Below the pieces are notes generated by a model that did not search any database, was not told the origin of the DNA, and saw only the letters and a program-made list of their open reading frames with translations. 64,000 nt of DNA from Rhizomicrobium sp. (GTDB taxonomy: Bacteria; Pseudomonadota; Alphaproteobacteria; Micropepsales; Micropepsaceae): contig JBBCHM010000001.1 in the NCBI GenBank assembly GCA_037200045.1, forward strand, positions 1,302,001 through 1,366,000, written 5' to 3'. This document shows, one piece after another, positions 41,372-49,835 of the stretch. Position 1 is the first letter of the stretch. The number at the start of each line of letters is the position of its first letter. A program made the position numbers and the translations under genes.

Positions 41372-42400
41372 ATGCGAACACGCGCGATCTATGGCTGCGC
41401 CGGCTTGGAGCTTGGCGCCGCGGAGCGGGATTTTTTCCGCGAGGTTCAGCCTTGGGGATTCGTCCTGTTCGCACGGAACATCGATACGCCCGACCAGATC
41501 CGCGCGCTGGTGGCGGCGCTGCGCGAGACGGTCGGCGATGCGCGCGCGCCGGTGCTGATCGACCAGGAAGGCGGGCGCGTGGCGCGGCTGAAGCCGCCCG
41601 TGTGGAAGGCCAGGCTGCCCGCGGCGCGCTTCGGAGAAATCTATGCGGCGAACCATGAAGCGGCGCTCGAAGCGGTCTACCTGAACGCGCGGTTGATCGC
41701 GCACGATTTGACGGAGCTCGGCATCAACGTCGATTGCCTGCCGGTGCTCGATGTGCCGATCGAGGGTGCCGATGCGGTGATCGGCGACCGTGCCTTTGCC
41801 CACGATCCCGCGGCGATCATCGATCTGGGCCGGGCGCAGATCGAGGGACTGCTGGAGGGCGGCGTGCTGCCCATCATGAAGCACATTCCCGGCCATGGCC
41901 GCGCCACGGCCGATTCGCATCTGGCGCTGCCGCGCGTCGCGACCGAGGCCGAGGAACTCAGCGCCACGGATTTCGTGACCTTCCGCAGTCTCAACACCTG
42001 CCCGATGGCGATGACGGCGCATGTCGTCTACGAGGCCATCGATCCCCAGCGCCCGGCGACCACCAGCCCGAAAGTGATTCGCGACGTGATTCGCGGCGAG
42101 ATCGGTTTCGACGGCCTGTTGATATCGGACGATCTTTCGATGAACGCGCTGGACGGGCCCTTGCCGGTGCGTACAAAGGCGGCTCTGTTTGCGGGCTGCG
42201 ATGTGGTGCTTCACTGCAACGGCAAGATGGATGAGATGGCCGAAGTGGCATCCGAGGTGAAGGAACTGGACGGGCAGGCGCTGCGGCGCGCGGAACATGC
42301 GCTGTCGCATCTGAGCGTGCCCGACGCGTTCGATCCGGCGGCCGCCGAGGCGCGCCTCGCCGAGCTCATGGCCGCCAATCACGCCGGCGTGAGCGCATGA
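41372..42400 (+). CDS. nagZ: Beta-N-acetylhexosaminidase NagZ
   Basis: Glycoside hydrolase family 3 enzyme releasing N-acetylglucosamine from anhydromuropeptides in peptidoglycan recycling. Motifs: LIDQEGGRVARLKPP (residues 66-80), MKHIPGHGRATADSHLALP with the catalytic His, and the nucleophile aspartate in LLISDDLSMNAL. The 342-residue length is usual for cytosolic NagZ. Its stop overlaps the scpA start (ATGA). Confidence 0.96.
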   Translation: MRTRAIYGCAGLELGAAERDFFREVQPWGFVLFARNIDTPDQIRALVAALRETVGDARAPVLIDQEGGRVARLKPPVWKARLPAARFGEIYAANHEAALEAVYLNARLIAHDLTELGINVDCLPVLDVPIEGADAVIGDRAFAHDPAAIIDLGRAQIEGLLEGGVLPIMKHIPGHGRATADSHLALPRVATEAEELSATDFVTFRSLNTCPMAMTAHVVYEAIDPQRPATTSPKVIRDVIRGEIGFDGLLISDDLSMNALDGPLPVRTKAALFAGCDVVLHCNGKMDEMAEVASEVKELDGQALRRAEHALSHLSVPDAFDPAAAEARLAELMAANHAGVSA

Positions 42401-43221
42401 GCGACCCGGGCGAGAATTTCGGCGATTTCGACGCCATCGTGGCCCCGGCCGACGAAGCGCTGATGATCCATGTCGACGGCTTCGAAGGGCCGCTCGACCT
42501 GCTCCTGACCCTGGCGCGCAACCAGAAGGTCGACATCGCCAAGATCTCGATTCTGAAGCTCGCGGACCAGTATCTCGAATTCATCGAATCCGCCAAGAAG
42601 ATGAACCTGGAGCTGGCGGCCGACTATCTGGTGATGGCGGCGTGGCTGGCCTATCTCAAGTCGCGGCTCATCCTGCCGCAGCCGCCTTCGGTGGACGGCG
42701 AACCGTCGGCCGACGAGATGGCGACGCGGCTGCGCTGGCGGCTGCAGCGGCTGGAGGCGATGCGCCAGGCGGCGGCGCGGCTGATGGCCGGCGACCGGCT
42801 GGGGCGCGACGTGTTCGGGCGCGGCGATCCGGAGCCGGTCAATGTCGTCAAGCTCAAGACCTACAAGGACACGCTGTTCGACCTTCTGACCGCCTATGCG
42901 ACGCAGCGCACCAAGACGCTGGGCGGCCGGACCTATGTGCGCCAGCACGCGCCGGTGCTCCTGATCGAGGAGGCCCGGGCGCGGCTGGAGCGGATGCTGG
43001 GCCGCATCGCCGACTGGAGCGGGCTGGAGCGGCTTCTGCCGTTCGAATGGTCCGGCGGGCAGCGGCGGCGCTCGGCCATCGCGTCCACGCTGTTGGCCTG
43101 CCTGGAGCTGGCGCGGGACGGGCGGATCGAGATCCGCCAGATGGCGCCGTTCGAAGAGGTTTATATTCGCGACAAGATCGCAGCTTTTTCAGTCGACGAA
43201 ACAGCAAAGGTCACGCCATGA
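42397..43221 (+). CDS. scpA: Segregation and condensation protein A
   Basis: Kleisin subunit that bridges SMC heads; works with ScpB (next gene) and SMC (55210-58668). The N-terminal part has the kleisin signature HVDGFEGPLDLLLTLARNQK (24-43), then DIAKISILKLADQYLEFI, AADYLVMAAWLAYLKSRLIL; the C-terminal winged helix is near the end (EIRQMAPFEEVYIR). 274 residues. The start and stop each overlap a neighbour by four bases. Confidence 0.95.
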   Translation: MSDPGENFGDFDAIVAPADEALMIHVDGFEGPLDLLLTLARNQKVDIAKISILKLADQYLEFIESAKKMNLELAADYLVMAAWLAYLKSRLILPQPPSVDGEPSADEMATRLRWRLQRLEAMRQAAARLMAGDRLGRDVFGRGDPEPVNVVKLKTYKDTLFDLLTAYATQRTKTLGGRTYVRQHAPVLLIEEARARLERMLGRIADWSGLERLLPFEWSGGQRRRSAIASTLLACLELARDGRIEIRQMAPFEEVYIRDKIAAFSVDETAKVTP

Positions 43222-43961
43222 GTGGAGTCGCCCGCCTGGTCGCCAAGATCGAAACGGAAATGGGAGTGGAAGTGGAACAAGAGGGGGCCGAGTTTGCGGC
43301 CGAGACGCCGGCGGAAGCTGTGGGCGTAAACCCCGAGCATTTGCGCATGATCGAAGCGCTGCTGTTCGCCGCCGGCGAGCCGCTGGATGCGAAGGCGCTG
43401 TCAACATCTTTGCCGGAAGGCGCGGACGTGCCGGCGCTGCTGGCCGAGCTTCAGGCGGGCTATGAGAAACACGGTGTAAACCTTTCGAATGTCGCGGGAA
43501 AATGGCAGTTCCGCACCGCGCCGGACCTCGCTTTCCTGCTGCGCAAGGAGCAGCCCGAGCAGCGGCGGCTGAGCCGCGCCGCGATCGAGACTCTGGCGAT
43601 CATCGCCTATCATCAGCCGGTGACGCGGGCGGAGATCGAGGATATTCGCGGCGTCATGTTGTCCAAGGGGACGCTTGATGTCCTCATGGAAATTGGCTGG
43701 GTGAAGATCCGCGGCCGCAAGAAGACGCCGGGCCGGCCGGTGACCTTCGGCACGACGGAGACTTTCCTGGTCCAGTTCGGGCTGGAGAATGTGAACCACC
43801 TGCCGGGCGTGGACGAGCTGAAGGCGGCCGGCTTCCTGGAAGCCATCCCGCCCGCCGGCTTCGACGTGCCGAGCCCGAGCGACGAGCTGGGGCCGGACGA
43901 AGACCCCTATACCGGCGAGGAAGAAGCCGATCTTGCGACCGGCGGGCCGGAGCTGAACTAG
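43218..43961 (+). CDS. scpB: Segregation and condensation protein B
   Basis: Winged-helix partner of ScpA in the SMC complex, 247 residues. Two winged-helix domains are visible: LRMIEALLFAAGEPLDAKAL, RRLSRAAIETLAIIAYHQPV with TRAEIEDIRGVMLSKGTLDV, then GWVKIRGRKKTPGRPVTFGT. An acidic C-terminal tail (DELGPDEDPYTGEEEADL) follows. ATG overlaps the scpA stop. In many Alphaproteobacteria tatABC would follow; here the order breaks and the RiPP-like locus begins. Confidence 0.95.
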   Translation: MSGVARLVAKIETEMGVEVEQEGAEFAAETPAEAVGVNPEHLRMIEALLFAAGEPLDAKALSTSLPEGADVPALLAELQAGYEKHGVNLSNVAGKWQFRTAPDLAFLLRKEQPEQRRLSRAAIETLAIIAYHQPVTRAEIEDIRGVMLSKGTLDVLMEIGWVKIRGRKKTPGRPVTFGTTETFLVQFGLENVNHLPGVDELKAAGFLEAIPPAGFDVPSPSDELGPDEDPYTGEEEADLATGGPELN

Positions 43962-43969
43962 GCGGTGCG

Positions 43970-44701
43970 TCAGGCCGGCGAAACCAGCGTCGCGAGTGCG
44001 GCGAACGCGGCGAGCTCCGCGGCGCCGGTCGCGAGCGTCATCGCATAAAAGCGGCGGGCGGTCGCGGGATCGAACCAGTTCCATTTGCGGGACCGTCCCC
44101 GGATCGCGACGCCGTCGACCAGCGCGAAGGCCGCGATCGCGGGCGCGGCGGCCCAGGCCGGGCCGCCGGCGATCGCGAGATAGACCAGGCCGCGCGAGCC
44201 GACATGGCCGAGCGTGGCGCCGAGCCGCTCGATGAACAGCATGTGGCGCACCCAGGGTGAGAGCCGGGCGCCCGCCAGCCAGGCTTCCAGCACTTGCGGA
44301 TCCAGTCCGCGCAGCCGTTCGGCGATGCCGCTGGCCAGCACGAAGGCGATCTCGCTCGAAGACGCGCCGATGCCGAAAGCCACGATGCCGCTTGCATCGG
44401 GGCGCACGCCCGACCAGAGGACGGCGGCGGCCAGCAGGCCGAGTTCGTCGACCGCCGAGAACAGGCCCCACGCGGCGGCGCCGGCGATGCCGGCTTCCAC
44501 GCGCCGGCGCACGCCCGAAAGGCGCATCAGGCCAAATTTCACCGCGACCGCCACGGCCCAGCTCGCGGCGCCGATCGCCAGGCACGGTCCGGCGGACGGC
44601 GCGGCGAAGCCGAGCGCCAGCGGCGGGACGATCATCAGCGCCAGGGTGCCGAACAAGGACGGCAGGCCCGACGGCACGGCGGACTGTGGAACTGGCGTCA
44701 T
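43970..44701 (-). CDS. Multi-pass integral membrane protein next to the RiPP-like genes
   Basis: A 243-residue protein with about seven hydrophobic segments (SLFGTLALMIVPPLALGFAA, LAIGAASWAVAVAVKFGLM, GIAGAAAWGLFSAVDELGLL, AFGIGASSSEIAFVLASGIA, LGHVGSRGLVYLAI and others). Glu/Ser residues within segments three and four and a His in LGHVGSRG recall intramembrane protease-like YhfC or CPBP proteins, but the exact motif is not present and I do not assign it. It is divergent from the radical SAM gene, sharing the AT-rich 44702-44830 region. It could serve as immunity, processing or export protein, or may be unrelated. Confidence 0.7.
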   Translation of the reverse strand: MTPVPQSAVPSGLPSLFGTLALMIVPPLALGFAAPSAGPCLAIGAASWAVAVAVKFGLMRLSGVRRRVEAGIAGAAAWGLFSAVDELGLLAAAVLWSGVRPDASGIVAFGIGASSSEIAFVLASGIAERLRGLDPQVLEAWLAGARLSPWVRHMLFIERLGATLGHVGSRGLVYLAIAGGPAWAAAPAIAAFALVDGVAIRGRSRKWNWFDPATARRFYAMTLATGAAELAAFAALATLVSPA

Positions 44702-44760
44702 GGAAAACCGGGCTTTTCATGGATTCAATGGATGTTGCAAGTATTCGTATAGTATTACTG

Positions 44761-44788
44761 TTGACAACCTTGAGTTATATTATATTCT
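44761..44788 (+). promoter_or_regulatory. Promoter of the radical SAM/peptide operon
   Basis: TTGACA at 44761-44766 with TATTCT at 44783-44788 (16-base spacer), inside an AT-rich stretch that contrasts with the surrounding DNA. Upstream, AGTATT occurs twice with an 11-base period (44740-44756), which looks like a one-turn regulator site. A start of transcription near 44795 would lie just past the ATG at 44792, supporting the ATG at 44831 as the real start. Confidence 0.6.
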
Positions 44789-44830
44789 CCAATGAACGTC
44801 GTGACGCAGACCTGTAAAGGCGCTCGCTCC

Positions 44831-46390
44831 ATGATTGTTCTTCTGATCGCTCCGCCCATCATGGACTATGTGCAAGGTCGGCTGGTGTCGATCGCGATGG
44901 ACGCGCATCGCGAATGCCCGCCCTACGGGATGTATCTGCTGGTCAGCATTCTGCGCGCGCAGGGCCACGAGGTGATCTTCGCCGACCTGATTTCCGACGG
45001 CACCTCCTCGGTGAGCGCCTATGATGACGCCATCGCGCGGGCCGAGCTGGTCGGGATCGGCGCCACGTCGATGTCGTGGCCGACGGCGGTGGCGGTCCTG
45101 AAACAGGTTCGCGAACGGCGCCCCGACGTGCCGGTGGTCGCGGGCGGCATCCATCCCACGATGTTCGACCGCTATGTGCTGACCGCGTTTCCGGTCGACT
45201 ACATCATCCGCGGCGAGGGCGAGATCGGCCTGGCGGCGCTGGCCCAGGCGCTGGAGCGCGGCGGCGACCTTGCCACGGTGCCCAACCTGTCGTGGAAGAC
45301 GCCCGAAGGGGAGATCGTCCGCAATCCGCTGCACCAGTTGATCGCGCCCGAGGCGCTGCCCGATTTTCCGCTGCCCGACTACAGCCGGCTTCCGGAGGGG
45401 ATCTACAGCGCGCTGTCGATCGAATCCTCGCGCGGCTGCGCCTTCGATTGTTCGTTCTGCAGCACGTCCTACCGGCGGACCTGGCGCGGCATCGAGCCGG
45501 AGGCGTTTGTCGACCGGCTGGAGACGATCATGCCGCATGCCGGGCGCACGACGCTCGGCAACATCCACATCATCGACGACGAGTTCTCGATGAACCCGGC
45601 GCGCGCCACCCAGATCGCCAAGGTCATCGCCCGCCGCGGATTGAATCCGGCGCTGGTGTTCGATTCGCGCGCCAACGACCTTCTGAAGGAAGGCTATGTC
45701 GACGCCATCGCGCCGTTCACCAGCCAGTTCCTGGTCGGCGCGGAATGCGGCTATGACGAGGGGCTCGGGCGCATCGGCAAGGGCACGACCTGCGAGAAGC
45801 TCGACCTCGCGGCGGGCATCCTGGCGAAATACGGCATCGCCGGGCGCGCCGATTTCTCCTTCGTTCTCGGGCTGCCCTGGGAGAGCCGGGCGGAGGTCGA
45901 GAAGACCATCGCCTTCGCGGTGAACCTGCACGCCACCTATGGCGTGCGCATCCTGCTGCAATGGTATTGCCAGATCCCCGGCTCGCGCCTGTGGGACGAG
46001 GCGCAAGCGCGCGGCGCGGTCACCGAGGCGATGTACGACGATTACGGGTTCTTCAGCGACCTGTATCTGTTCCGCAGCGGCGTCAACCTGACGCCCGACG
46101 AGATCTACGCGATCTCGGACAAGGTGGCCGGCGTATTGACGCTGGCCCAGGTCCAGTACCCCACGCACAACATGATCGAATACGCGTTTCCCGATCCGGT
46201 CGCGCGCTACTACCCCCGGATCCTGCAGAGCTTCCACGACACCGGGCTTGCCAGCCTGCGCGACGTCGCCCGTCCGCAAGGCCACAAGCAGAAATCGCGC
46301 GAGGCCAGGCGCGAGAAGCCCGCCGCGACGCGGGTGGGAATTCCATTGCGGCACTTTGAAGGAGTCCACCAGAAAGGAAGTGTGACATGA
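44831..46390 (+). CDS. Cobalamin-binding-type radical SAM protein, likely RiPP-modifying enzyme
   Basis: A 519-residue enzyme with an N-terminal B12-binding-like Rossmann domain (about 1-140: IVLLIAPPIMDYVQGRLVSI, AELVGIGATSMSWPTAVAVL, VPVVAGGIHPTMF) and a radical SAM domain. The cluster cysteines are C203, C207, C210 in RGCAFDCSFCSTSYRRTW, the classic CxxxCxxC. Later blocks such as FSFVLGLPWESRAEVEKTI and LLQWYCQIPGSRLWDEA match B12-rSAM proteins. Such enzymes C-methylate or epimerise residues in proteusins and related peptides and include the 'RiPP maturation radical SAM protein 1' group. ATG 44831 is preferred; 44792 is the longer option (532 aa). Its stop overlaps the peptide gene (ATGA). 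The exact chemistry is unknown. Confidence 0.86.
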   Translation: MIVLLIAPPIMDYVQGRLVSIAMDAHRECPPYGMYLLVSILRAQGHEVIFADLISDGTSSVSAYDDAIARAELVGIGATSMSWPTAVAVLKQVRERRPDVPVVAGGIHPTMFDRYVLTAFPVDYIIRGEGEIGLAALAQALERGGDLATVPNLSWKTPEGEIVRNPLHQLIAPEALPDFPLPDYSRLPEGIYSALSIESSRGCAFDCSFCSTSYRRTWRGIEPEAFVDRLETIMPHAGRTTLGNIHIIDDEFSMNPARATQIAKVIARRGLNPALVFDSRANDLLKEGYVDAIAPFTSQFLVGAECGYDEGLGRIGKGTTCEKLDLAAGILAKYGIAGRADFSFVLGLPWESRAEVEKTIAFAVNLHATYGVRILLQWYCQIPGSRLWDEAQARGAVTEAMYDDYGFFSDLYLFRSGVNLTPDEIYAISDKVAGVLTLAQVQYPTHNMIEYAFPDPVARYYPRILQSFHDTGLASLRDVARPQGHKQKSREARREKPAATRVGIPLRHFEGVHQKGSVT

Positions 46391-46695
46391 CCGACGTACA
46401 TCCGAGCGAAGTGAAATATGCCGAGGCGATGCGCAAGGTGTTCACCGACGCCGCGGTGCAGAAGAAACTGGAGCATGATCCGGTCGGGACCCTGGAAGGG
46501 CTCGGCTTCGATCTCAGCGCCGACGCCAAGCACAAGCTCAAGGCGGGCGGCGCGGCGCAGGCCGAACTGGGCGTCGCCGCGGTCCCGGCGGTGCTCGTGC
46601 GGGTCGTGACGAGCGGCACGCGTCCCGCCGTGAGCGTGGTCGTGCAGTCTTCGACCTTCGCATCGACGCGGGGCAAGGCGGCCGAACTCGACTGA
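46387..46695 (+). CDS. Putative RiPP precursor peptide with NHLP-like leader
   Basis: A 102-residue peptide. The leader (about 1-55) has KVFTDAAVQKKLEHDPVGTL followed by EGLGFDLS, resembling nitrile-hydratase-like leaders (pattern: aromatic, D, hydrophobic, LxxDPxxxLxxLG). A Gly-Gly pair at residues 54-55 offers a cleavage site. The remainder is rich in valine (ten between 63 and 86) and holds two imperfect repeats, PAVLVRVVTSGT and PAVSVVVQSST. No cysteine occurs in the whole peptide, excluding lanthionine or sactionine bridges; C-methylation or epimerisation of Val fits better. ATG has AGGAAG six bases upstream, within the end of the enzyme gene. Confidence 0.78.
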   Translation: MTDVHPSEVKYAEAMRKVFTDAAVQKKLEHDPVGTLEGLGFDLSADAKHKLKAGGAAQAELGVAAVPAVLVRVVTSGTRPAVSVVVQSSTFASTRGKAAELD

Positions 46696-46703
46696 ACGGC
46701 AGC

Positions 46704-46734
46704 GAGGGCGCGGGCGGTTTCGCCGCGCGCCCTC
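46704..46734. terminator. GC-rich hairpin between the peptide gene and rnd
   Basis: Arms GAGGGCGCG and CGCGCCCTC (46704-46712, 46726-46734) enclose a smaller GGCG-GTTT-CGCC hairpin with one bulged G. It starts 9 bases after the peptide stop and lies 18 bases before the convergent rnd stop. There is no T run, so it may act as a stabilising or rho-assisted structure rather than a strict intrinsic terminator. Confidence 0.6.
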
Positions 46735-46751
46735 TCATGCCGCTTGCCGGA

Positions 46752-47906
46752 TCAGTCCTCCAGCTCCACCACGACCGCTTCGCCGCCTTCCAGCGCGATG
46801 GCGAGGTCGCCCTTGCGCAGGGCCAGCGCGTCGTTGCCGAAGACCTGGGCGCGCCAGCCATGCAGGGCGGGAACGCCTTCGTCTTCCAGCGCCGCCAGGC
46901 GCTCGATGTCGTCGGCGTTGGCGATCAGGCGCGGCGCGACGCCGACGGCCTCGGCGCGCAGGCGCAGCAGGGTCTTCAGAAGATCGACCGCGGCCTGCGA
47001 CGGCTCGCGGCGGCGGCGCGGGCGGTCGTGCTCCAGCGGCTCGGGCGGCTTGGCGTGGCGGCCTTCCTCGATGGCGTCCATCAGCGTCTTGCCCAGCCGC
47101 GAATTGGCGAAGCCCTTGGGCACGGCGCGGATGCGTTCCAGCGCCTCGGCATCCTCCGGCGGATGGGCGGCGATCTCCATCAGCGCCTCGTCCTTGAGGA
47201 CGCGGCCGCGCGGGATGTCGCGCGCCTGGGCCTCGCGCTCGCGCCAGGCGGCGAGCGCGGCGATCATCGCCAGGAAGCGTTTGTTGGAGGTACGCGGCTT
47301 CAGCCGCTTCCAGGCGATCTCGGGCTGCATCGCGTAGAGGTCGGGGTCCTGCAGCGCGGCGATCTCCTCCTGCACCCAGGCGGCGCGGCCGGTCTTCTCG
47401 AGCTGCTTCTTCAGATATTCGTAGATCGTGCGCAGATGGGTGACGTCGCCGATCGCGTAGTCGAGCTGCTTCTGGCTCAGCGGCCGGCGCGACCAATCCG
47501 TGAAGCGCGAGGATTTGTCGATCTCGACATGGGCGATCTTGCGGCACAGCGTTTCATAGGACGCCGCATCGCCGAAGCCCGCGACCATCGCGGCGATCTG
47601 GCTGTCGAACAAGGGATCGGGGATCATGCCGCCCTGGTGGTGGAAGATCTCGATGTCCTGCCGCGCGGCGTGCAGCACCTTGACGATGCCGGGCTTCTTC
47701 AACAGCTCGTAGAACGGCGCCAGATCGATGCCCTCGGCCAGGGGGTCGACGATGGCCTCGACGCCGGGCGCCGCCACCTGGATCAGGCAGAGCTTGGGCC
47801 AATAGGTCTGGTCGCGCATGAACTCGGTGTCGAGCGCGATATAGGGCGCGTCCTCCAGGTCGGCGATGAGGGCGCCGAGGTCGGCATTGTTGTCCACGAT
47901 CCGCAT
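46752..47906 (-). CDS. rnd: Ribonuclease D
   Basis: 3'-5' exoribonuclease for tRNA and stable RNA ends, 384 residues. The DEDD exonuclease motifs are ALDTEFMRDQTYWPKL (residues 26-41), VLHAARQDIEIF, and LDYAIGDVTHLRTIYEYL. An HRDC domain follows (about 210-290, from REREAQARDIPRGRVLKDEA), and a C-terminal second HRDC-like helical part ends the protein. It is convergent with the RiPP operon and is followed by the secreted phosphatase-like gene's own unit. Confidence 0.95.
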   Translation of the reverse strand: MRIVDNNADLGALIADLEDAPYIALDTEFMRDQTYWPKLCLIQVAAPGVEAIVDPLAEGIDLAPFYELLKKPGIVKVLHAARQDIEIFHHQGGMIPDPLFDSQIAAMVAGFGDAASYETLCRKIAHVEIDKSSRFTDWSRRPLSQKQLDYAIGDVTHLRTIYEYLKKQLEKTGRAAWVQEEIAALQDPDLYAMQPEIAWKRLKPRTSNKRFLAMIAALAAWREREAQARDIPRGRVLKDEALMEIAAHPPEDAEALERIRAVPKGFANSRLGKTLMDAIEEGRHAKPPEPLEHDRPRRRREPSQAAVDLLKTLLRLRAEAVGVAPRLIANADDIERLAALEDEGVPALHGWRAQVFGNDALALRKGDLAIALEGGEAVVVELED

Positions 47907-47945
47907 CGGATCGTGATAGCGGATTCGCGCGGCGCTTGCGCGCGG

Positions 47946-49835
47946 CTATTTGGCCTTCAGGCCGACCGTCCGGCCCGGAATGCCGCCGGCGTCGAAATAG
48001 CGGACGCCGCCTACGTCCTGGTACTCCAGAACGGTGGCGAGGCCGCCGGCGCCGGGGGCCGAGCGGAGCGTGCCGGAGGTCGCCTTGACCGGCGCGCCGC
48101 CCGCCAGGGCCTCGGTCGCGGGGCGGCCGGTGAGGGTGCCGGGACCCGCCAAAGATATCCCCAGGATATGGGCGATGGTCGGCGCGATGTCGGCGTTGCT
48201 GACCGGCGCGGTGTCGACGAAGCCCTTGCGGAAGTCCGGGCCGATGGCGGCCATGAAGTTCCGCGTGTCGGCGCGGCTGAAGGTGCCGTGCATGCCCTGG
48301 CCGGTGTGGAGCGGCGTGTCGGCGATCTCCACGGTGCAGAGCAGGGCCTGGGGCGCCGTGCAGCCCTTGGCGAGGAAGGAGCGGAAGCCGACCACGATGG
48401 CGGGCCGCGGCACGTTCGAGGAACCGATCAGGTTGATCTTGCTCATCGGCAGGGCGCCGGCGAAGGCGGCGGGATCGGCGCCCAGCAGCGCGTCGTTGAC
48501 GAACAGCGCGCCGACATAGGGCGCCGAGACCAGCTTGGCGAAGACCGCCTTGGCGGTCGCGGCGCCGTTCGGTCCCGGCGCGTAGATGAAGTCCGAGCCG
48601 CCATTCGAGGCGACGATGGCCACCGGCGCGTCCGGCGTCGGGCCGATCAGGGCGTTGCCTTGGCTCGGGCGGTCGCCGTCGTCGCGGATGATCTCGGTGT
48701 TGGAGCGGTCGGGATCGAACAGCTTCTGGCCCCCCAGCCACGCGGCGACGTCGAAGGCGAGGAAGCCCTGAGGCAGCGAGGCCGGCGGCGTCGAACCGTC
48801 GGCCGGCGGGGTGCCCTTGGCGATGGTCGAGAAGCCGTGATCGGCGGTGACGAAGATGTCGGTGTTGCCGTCCTGGCCGGCGAGCTTGAGCGCCTCCATC
48901 AACACGCGGAGCTGGAAGTCGGCGCTGGCGATGGCGATGCGCGCCGACGGGCTGTTGATGCCGGGGACGAGACGGCCCTCGCTGTCGATCGCCGAATGCT
49001 GCGTCGCGTCGGGATCGCGCGACCAGTACAGCATCACGAAGGGCTTGCCGTTGTCCTTGAGGTCGGGAACCAGCGCCTGGGCGGCGATGGAGACCAGCCA
49101 GGCCTGCTGCGTCAGGTTCGGCGCGCTGGTGAAGGCGGGGCGGTCGTCGCCGGAGACGGCGAAGGCCTCGGCGCCGAGCGCGCCGTTCAGCCTGGTGCTC
49201 CTGGTCGGCGTGCCGTCGGCATTGGCCGGGCGGTTGGTGGCGTCGTCGATGAAGACGCCGAGCGGATCGTCGACGCGCGCGTCCTTGGCATCGAGCGAGC
49301 CGAGGTTCTGGATCGCGGCCGGACCTTTCTTGCCGAGGATGGCGGTGTTGAAGCCGGCGGCGCGCGCGGCGCCGATCAGCGTGGTCTGGCCCATATAGCC
49401 GTCGTGGAAATGGTCCTTCACGTCGCGCAGGACGCAATCGTCCTCCAGGAAGGTCACGACCGCGCCGAGGCGGCAGGGCACGGGGAAATCGACGAACAGC
49501 GTGTTGCCGTAATCGCCGGTGTCGCCGAGATAGTGGCCCGAGGCGATGGCCGAGGCGTTGGCGGTGGTGACCGTGGGATAGATCGAATGGCTGTTGGCGA
49601 AATCGACGCCGTCCTTGCGGATGCGGGCGAAGGTCGGCGCCACGTCGGGATTGACGCTGTCGTAACGCAGGCCGTCGGCGACGAAGACGATCACGTTGTG
49701 CGGCTTGCCCGGGGCGGCGGGCGCCGTTTGCGCCGGCGGGATCGGCTTGGCGTGGCGGGCCGGCTTGGCTGAGGCGGGCAGGGCGACGGCGAAGGCCAGG
49801 GCGGCAAGGACGGCGAGACGGATCGGCTTCATCAA
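47946..49835 (-). CDS. Secreted alkaline-phosphatase-superfamily (nucleotide pyrophosphatase/phosphodiesterase type) protein
   Basis: Exported hydrolase of 629 residues. A signal peptide (MKPIRLAVLAALAFAVALPA, cleaved near ASAKPA) precedes the AlkP-fold catalytic domain. Metal-binding positions are seen in NVIVFVADGLRYDSVNP, the nucleophile threonine in YPTVTTANASAIASGHYLG, and DIFVTADHGFSTIAKG. Further conserved His/Asp residues lie in TPLHTGQGMHGTF. It may release phosphate from nucleotides or phosphodiesters in the periplasm. Two initial ATG codons (49835, 49832) are possible. It lies between rnd and aspS in opposite orientation to aspS. Confidence 0.9.
   Translation of the reverse strand: MMKPIRLAVLAALAFAVALPASAKPARHAKPIPPAQTAPAAPGKPHNVIVFVADGLRYDSVNPDVAPTFARIRKDGVDFANSHSIYPTVTTANASAIASGHYLGDTGDYGNTLFVDFPVPCRLGAVVTFLEDDCVLRDVKDHFHDGYMGQTTLIGAARAAGFNTAILGKKGPAAIQNLGSLDAKDARVDDPLGVFIDDATNRPANADGTPTRSTRLNGALGAEAFAVSGDDRPAFTSAPNLTQQAWLVSIAAQALVPDLKDNGKPFVMLYWSRDPDATQHSAIDSEGRLVPGINSPSARIAIASADFQLRVLMEALKLAGQDGNTDIFVTADHGFSTIAKGTPPADGSTPPASLPQGFLAFDVAAWLGGQKLFDPDRSNTEIIRDDGDRPSQGNALIGPTPDAPVAIVASNGGSDFIYAPGPNGAATAKAVFAKLVSAPYVGALFVNDALLGADPAAFAGALPMSKINLIGSSNVPRPAIVVGFRSFLAKGCTAPQALLCTVEIADTPLHTGQGMHGTFSRADTRNFMAAIGPDFRKGFVDTAPVSNADIAPTIAHILGISLAGPGTLTGRPATEALAGGAPVKATSGTLRSAPGAGGLATVLEYQDVGGVRYFDAGGIPGRTVGLKAK

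Follow-up and report, generated by a model that had tools for sequence, protein, structure and literature searches.

What does a B12-binding radical S-adenosylmethionine (SAM) enzyme do with a small peptide whose gene overlaps its own, and do the two act alone? The question is posed by a stretch of 64,000 nucleotides from Rhizomicrobium sp. (assembly GCA_037200045.1, contig JBBCHM010000001.1, forward-strand positions 1,302,001 to 1,366,000; hereafter the window, to which unprefixed coordinates refer), where such a pair of genes lies behind scpB and was taken, in a preliminary description, for a candidate system making a ribosomally synthesized and post-translationally modified peptide (RiPP), with one enzyme for one peptide and no protease. 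A third gene, for an integral membrane protein, is positioned between scpB and the enzyme gene on the opposite strand and is transcribed away from the enzyme. Our best explanation, to which we assign a probability of about 0.6, is a three-gene, horizontally gained RiPP cassette, in which the enzyme would C-methylate the core of the peptide, which is conserved and rich in Val, and the membrane protein would handle the product. The small protein would be the precursor, its leader, similar to the nitrile hydratase-like leader peptide (NHLP) clan, binding the enzyme and its conserved C-terminal part serving as the core; the single enzyme would methylate unactivated core carbons, with Val side chains foremost among the candidates; and the divergent membrane protein would act on the modified peptide at the membrane, by distant YhfC-type intramembrane cleavage, export or immunity.

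The anatomy of the pair is as first described. The enzyme stop codon and the peptide start codon share ATGA at 46387-46390, with AAGGAAG upstream, and the enzyme and peptide genes of Aurantimonas coralicida (L017) overlap likewise by -4. The enzyme matches PF02310 (B12-binding, 58.9 bits) and PF04055 (Radical_SAM, 40.1 bits) above the Pfam cut-offs, and thus combines an N-terminal B12-binding domain with a radical SAM domain carrying CxxxCxxC at residues 203-210, as expected of a B12-binding radical SAM enzyme; C203, C207 and C210 are invariant in all 20 aligned enzymes. Residues are counted from the ATG at 44831. The longest open reading frame (ORF) begins at 44792, only 3 nt past a -10 hexamer, and the alignment of relatives begins at 44831, so the latter is the likely start. 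The peptide of 102 residues is free of Cys, as had been noted.

The pair recurs in distant genomes. A pattern-based scan of genome contigs, which reaches close relatives only, returned 18 enzyme loci, distributed over Pseudomonadota, Actinomycetota, Acidobacteriota, Myxococcota, Thermodesulfobacteriota, an Aegiribacteria, an unplaced bacterium and a Methanosaeta; together with the window and G407 these make 20 distinct loci (L007 duplicates L023 and was removed, L006 gave way to its longer version L041, and all other enzyme loci were kept). The relatives are 40-67% identical to the window enzyme. An NHLP-like peptide adjoins the enzyme in 14 of the 20 loci (window, L008, L009, L010, L011, L012, L013, L014, L016, L017, L019, L020, L023 and L041), which is the conserved adjacency of precursor and enzyme expected of a RiPP system, and this and the gene families, which fit, support the original assignment to RiPPs. 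A profile of the peptide (E ≤ 0.01) found one copy in each of these 14 genomes and, more weakly, a match beside other radical SAM genes in the Methanosaeta genome, giving 15 of 20 genomes in total. Because of the gene families involved, the peptide is very probably the substrate of the enzyme.

Several of the variant loci deserve mention in their own right. The weaker Methanosaeta match (L072:1468-1719) is an NHLP-like peptide of 83 aa that carries two C-terminal Cys, flanked by two genes for what are, by appearance, putative B12-type radical SAM enzymes. Genes resembling lanthipeptide synthetases are present at two loci: in Actinomadura (L008:10073-13016) a LanL-like gene stands behind a second, Cys-containing small ORF, and in Luteitalea (L020:4665-7013) a HopA1-LanC fusion is encoded upstream of the Cys-free peptide. 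The partner peptide of G407 (L041:8730-9344) has 205 aa, with a strongly hydrophobic, anchor-like end segment followed by an Arg run. At L015:2661-3635 and L018:7134-8381 a chagasin-type Inhibitor_I42 protein with 6 and 13 YAAP repeats, respectively, adjoins an enzyme relative 52-54% identical to the window enzyme, and a SPASM radical SAM enzyme with tetratricopeptide repeats lies at 3831-5351 of L015 and 8414-9991 of L018; this looks like another, repeat-core modified-protein system.

The enzyme is rare and its distribution patchy. Within the same order the window genome alone, 1 of 96, carries it at E ≤ 1e-60, and 3 of 386 genomes sampled from the class do so at E ≤ 1e-50, the window genome counted. 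At E ≤ 1e-80, samples or draws from larger groups, with the seed genomes counted, contained it as follows: Aurantimonas family, 1 of 151 genomes; Rhodopseudomonas family, 2 of 248; genus Streptomyces, 2 of 246; Methylocystis family, 1 of 179. The maximum-likelihood tree of the enzyme departs from the phylogeny of the organisms: one starred branch unites an alphaproteobacterium, an acidobacterium and a myxobacterium, and the rows nearest to the window enzyme are Aurantimonas and then Actinomadura, while the deep part of the tree, with its long branches and open forks, is unsure. Among 72,556 plasmids there was no match for the enzyme (E ≤ 1e-40), the peptide (E ≤ 0.01) or the membrane protein (E ≤ 0.001), and viral contigs yielded only remote relatives of 22-30% identity.

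Comparison with genus relatives indicates how the genes arrived. In 15 such relatives the scpB region contained nothing that matched either the membrane protein or the enzyme. The rnd gene follows scpB within 1.5 kb in nine of them and within 25 bp in three (L043, L047 and L049), the remaining 12 having something else behind scpB or a contig that was not followed. In the closest sister, G035 (L043), whose scpB is 88-89% identical, the stop codons of scpB and rnd overlap, and BLASTN aligned window positions 42301-43955 and 46746-48248 to adjoining positions of that genome; the window therefore differs from G035 by one insert of ~2,790 bp that holds all three genes. The cassette thus appears to have been gained horizontally as a block. 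Terminal repeats were sought at the insert, and the only candidate, a 10-bp inverted match inside coding and hairpin sequence, was unpersuasive; inspection by eye recognised no transposase or integrase among the ORFs of the insert, the others of which overlap the trio in other frames, and no dedicated search was made.

The membrane protein, with about six hydrophobic segments in a simple hydropathy scan, has homologues adjoining the enzyme in eight loci (window, L009, L010, L013, L017, L020, L022 and L023), and its profile (E ≤ 0.001, 20 genomes) matched in exactly these eight genomes, always beside the enzyme and never at a second locus. We assign the gene to the system because it arrived in the same block and is linked to the enzyme in eight genomes, which are the strongest arguments available, and the view of a system of one enzyme and one peptide is incomplete. 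The trio is complete in 7 of the 20 loci, L022 being without the peptide, and its carriers besides Rhizomicrobium include A. coralicida DSM 14790, Rhodopseudomonas and Methylocystis suflitae. The membrane gene is divergent from the enzyme gene in the window and in L017, and lies directly downstream of the peptide gene in L009, L010 and L013. On the enzyme tree the eight loci occupy three separate branches, which takes 3 changes where shuffling gives a mean of 6.5. When flanking ORFs were compared all against all, antisense and other-frame ORFs overlapping the enzyme being left aside, no gene besides enzyme, membrane protein and peptide was common to more than three loci. The Myxococcus locus (L022:7364-9353), where the membrane gene contains an internal TGA and was scored as two overlapping pieces, where the enzyme match starts at residue 70 and where the genome holds no peptide, appears to be decayed.

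The peptides resemble the NHLP clan in their N-terminal parts and diverge from its usual pattern further on. Among the 14 peptides, at E ≤ 0.1, NF038399 was matched by 12, TIGR04509 by 11, PF14407 (Frankia_peptide) by 7 and TIGR03793 by 5, with scores that, where printed, mostly lie under the curated cut-offs. The proposed likeness to NHLP leaders rests on relatives: L013 (45.9 bits) and L009 (45.1 bits) exceed the NF038399 cut-off of 40, while L014 (31.7), L017 (25.3) and the peptide of the window (20.4) remain under it. For TIGR03793 (cut-off 50.9 bits) the best E-value among the peptides was 5e-4 and the printed scores were 15.2 and 15.4 bits; the window peptide gave no match to it at E ≤ 1. 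The C-terminal part is rich in Val and Ile (6-14 of the best 24 residues in the 14 peptides), and in the group nearest to the window (window, L009, L010, L013, L017, L020 and L023) follows a pattern like V.T..GT.P.V.V.V.

The preliminary description had expected a fast-evolving core, and we found the reverse. In six peptide pairs, picked by closeness among the 14, the C-terminal part was never less conserved than the leader (82/45, 65/44, 73/42, 42/26, 53/28 and 64/62% identity), clearly so in five and barely in the last. Between the window and L017 the nonsynonymous rate (dN) was 0.16 for the core and 0.43 for the leader, with synonymous rates (dS) of 0.7-1.4 by a simple Nei-Gojobori estimate that is near saturation. 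With its C-terminal part conserved and core dN below leader dN, the product appears subject to purifying selection, in contrast to the hypervariable NHLP cores of Haft et al., who describe a Gly-Gly motif at the end of the leader followed by a hypervariable core (PMC2887384).

What weighs against the three-gene reading is best taken part by part, beginning with the membrane protein, for which immunity or export rather than proteolysis has close to an even chance. The membrane gene is missing from 7 of the 14 enzyme-peptide loci, and its product diverges faster than the enzyme in five pairs (window and L017 share 42% identity, against 69% for the enzyme). Among Pfam families only PF10086, the YhfC intramembrane metalloproteases, was matched by more than one member (3 of 8, best E 3.3e-4), but the cut-off of 24.2 bits was not reached (L010 16.4, L020 14.2; the window protein gave no match), and an hhalign comparison of the membrane family with seven YhfC proteins was collinear and not significant (probability 0.2%, E 0.39). 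This YhfC alignment, of seven sequences from nine loci (L078 and L081, for which the wrong ORF had been obtained, were left out and the split matches L082-L083 unused), has invariant EE, GHGGGGE, ER and H..D residues. Similar in length and likewise multi-pass, the membrane proteins partly match its Glu, GxG..E and ER motifs, keeping E117 and ER in 8 of 8 and the Glu of ELG in 7 of 8, but they have lost the second E of EE and the conserved His of both GHGGGGE and H..ID, and have gained a new invariant His, H166. Nineteen columns are invariant in the eight membrane sequences, including E117, E158, R159, H166, R170 and D196, and on the side of a protease E117, the E158-R159 pair and H166 could form a metal site. 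Because the profile comparison gave only E 0.39, we put forward homology to YhfC as a weak lead, and proteolytic activity as a tentative hypothesis about the protein, not as membership of that family. The bolder proposal, that this is the first case of a RiPP pathway in which maturation takes place by intramembrane proteolysis, a mobile minimal class in which a new YhfC-related family of metalloproteases would cleave a C-methylated product, is unlikely; if true, the intramembrane-cleaved product would be conserved, perhaps with a role in signalling or in modifying membranes.

As regards the chemistry, B12-radical SAM enzymes mostly methylate unactivated carbons, this being the commonest reaction of the class, and PoyC is reported to methylate Val C-beta in polytheonamide. 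Among the profile matches of the window enzyme, those to B12-radical SAM C-methyltransferases and RiPP enzymes point the same way: ApyD (93.4 of 750 bits, the second-best NCBIfam profile), HpnR, TIGR03975 and the Mcr-Gln and Trp methyltransferases. The best NCBIfam profile is BchE (105 of 481 bits), and all of these scores are far under the respective cut-offs. Every curated NCBIfam model that the enzyme matches, however, excludes it by its cut-off, and among these is TIGR03975, the RiPP maturation radical SAM C-methyltransferase model that had been proposed as a check (51.5 bits against 281.85). Profile matches in PDB were to OxsB (best), TsrM, TokK and CysS. Trp83, located behind strand 3, is invariant in all 20 enzymes and aligns two residues past TokK Trp76; the corresponding strand-3 loop residue is Trp76 in TokK, Asn186 in OxsB and Arg69 in TsrM according to an excerpt of PMC13331322, and that Trp83 is the residue under the cobalt is suggestive only. 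A tail motif, P.R[HR][FI], is present in nine of the 10 enzymes whose NHLP-like peptide is encoded downstream, but in none of the 10 others, a count inflated by kinship among the loci for a motif defined after the alignment had been viewed; it may be a contact for the downstream peptide. Overall, C-methylation is the probable reaction, and Val a possible but doubtful target.

That the enzyme modifies the peptide by some other B12-radical SAM reaction, such as cross-linking, ring formation or methylation of Thr, Pro or Arg, is rather unlikely. Its best profiles are nevertheless BchE, an oxidative cyclase, and ApyD in preference to TIGR03975; the best structural match, OxsB, is described as a non-methyltransferase (PMC13331322, in part); PbsB is a B12-radical SAM enzyme that cross-links ortho-Tyr (PMC12257519, in part); and the most conserved residues in close cores are GT.P.V rather than Val alone. 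Against it, Cys, Trp, Tyr and His are all absent from the window core, which contains a single Phe, so that thioether or aromatic cross-links of the known kinds would have few sites; methylation is the usual outcome in this class; and Trp83 falls in the loop region of TokK Trp76, albeit two residues beyond it and therefore only suggestively. Epimerisation, the other chemistry initially considered, finds little support (TIGR04517/PoyD, 11.9 of 325 bits). Val spacing was also tried as a sign of a beta-helix or of epimerisation and set aside, spacing by two exceeding that of shuffled sequences in only one of 14 peptides (L008, p 0.04; p>0.05 in the other 13), a result that does not favour the proposed product.

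The remaining contrary points concern the substrate. In 6 of the 20 loci the enzyme has no NHLP-like peptide, two (L015 and L018) having the I42/YAAP protein and four (L021, L022, L024 and L025) no visible candidate, and the enzyme subfamily is therefore wider than this peptide; no conserved Gly-Gly column was found in the peptide alignment; and the core is conserved instead of hypervariable, which goes halfway towards the condition under which the preliminary description was to be abandoned, namely a C-terminal half conserved like that of a folded protein. It is nonetheless improbable that the peptide is a small folded regulatory or partner protein with a C-terminal part functional unmodified, and that the enzyme has a small molecule or a lipid as its substrate, as its hopanoid and BchE profile relatives, the loci without peptide and the six-pair comparison might suggest, for 12 of 14 peptides have NHLP-clan leader matches, the C-terminal part does diverge across clades (L008, L011, L012 and L019 versus the window), and no other substrate-like or metabolic gene is common to more than three loci nearby. 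A role of the enzyme in defence was rejected, its single weak PADLOC match (PDC-M51A, 38.3 bits) being taken as superfamily likeness; PADLOC gave no match for the peptide or the membrane protein.

The three-gene cassette can also be set against known systems. It shares with proteusins (for example polytheonamide, PoyA/PoyC) an NHLP-clan leader, a B12-binding radical SAM enzyme and a Val-rich, Cys-free core, but differs in that the enzyme falls short of TIGR03975, the leader falls short of TIGR03793, the core is conserved, and the window pair is joined by a membrane protein and not by an epimerase or lanthipeptide synthetase. The Os1348 family (NF038399), likewise of short NHLP-clan proteins, is the commonest NCBIfam match of the peptide set (12 of 14); in cluster OS3 of Pseudomonas sp. 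Os17, however, the partners are an acetyltransferase, a predicted peptidase, a SagB-type dehydrogenase and efflux genes, and radical SAM is absent as a term from the main text of the article (PMC7726476, in part). RiPP enzymes of the ApyD/PbsB type also combine B12-binding and radical SAM domains, ApyD being the second-best profile, whereas the window enzyme is far under the ApyD cut-off, no MNIO gene lies beside the pair and the core has neither Tyr nor Trp.

The features of the locus are collected in Table 1. The divergent intergenic region, of 129 bp and 43% GC amid 500-base windows of 61-74% GC, contains on the plus strand a sigma-70-like promoter, TTGACA-16-TATTCT, at 44761-44788, in agreement with the AT-rich promoter described earlier; a further promoter-like site, on the minus strand (44767-44740), lies ahead of the membrane gene (2 sites in the scan, 0.5 expected in shuffles). 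In the intergenic stretch of L017 (62% GC) the same scan found no site, which speaks against a conserved promoter. A strong hairpin does lie behind the unit, within 46690-46760 (-45.6 kcal/mol, z -5.3), but it has no T run and is not among the calls of a terminator scan.

Table 1. Features of the cassette and its surroundings in the window
Feature	Position	Strand	Remarks
B12-binding/radical SAM enzyme, 519 aa	44831..46390	+	CxxxCxxC at residues 203-210; Trp83 after GIGATSMS; tail motif PLRHF
Precursor-like peptide, 102 aa, Cys-free	46387..46695	+	NHLP-clan (Os1348/TIGR04509-like) N-terminal part ~1-62
Peptide C-terminal part ~63-102, conserved, Val-rich (VAAVPAVLVRVVTSGTRPAVSVVVQSSTFA...)	within 46387..46695	+	
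Integral membrane protein, 243 aa, weakly YhfC-like	43970..44701	-	third cassette gene
Overlapping divergent sigma-70-like promoter sites	44740..44788	both	consensus matches only
GC-rich hairpin, candidate bidirectional terminator, without T run	46690..46757	+	between convergent peptide gene and rnd
Insert of ~2,790 bp relative to the empty site of G035	43956..46745		ends accurate to a few bases

No description of this system was found in the open-licence literature, judged mostly from listings and with searches that were not all directed at it, subscription papers being outside their scope. The analysis picks out a subfamily of B12-radical SAM enzymes that the curated models do not cover, along with its probable substrates and a membrane protein dedicated to it, and the cassette, at 2.8 kb, is small enough to be expressed whole. 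Conservation of the core speaks for a defined function and not for an arms-race antibiotic, which is unusual among peptides of the NHLP type.

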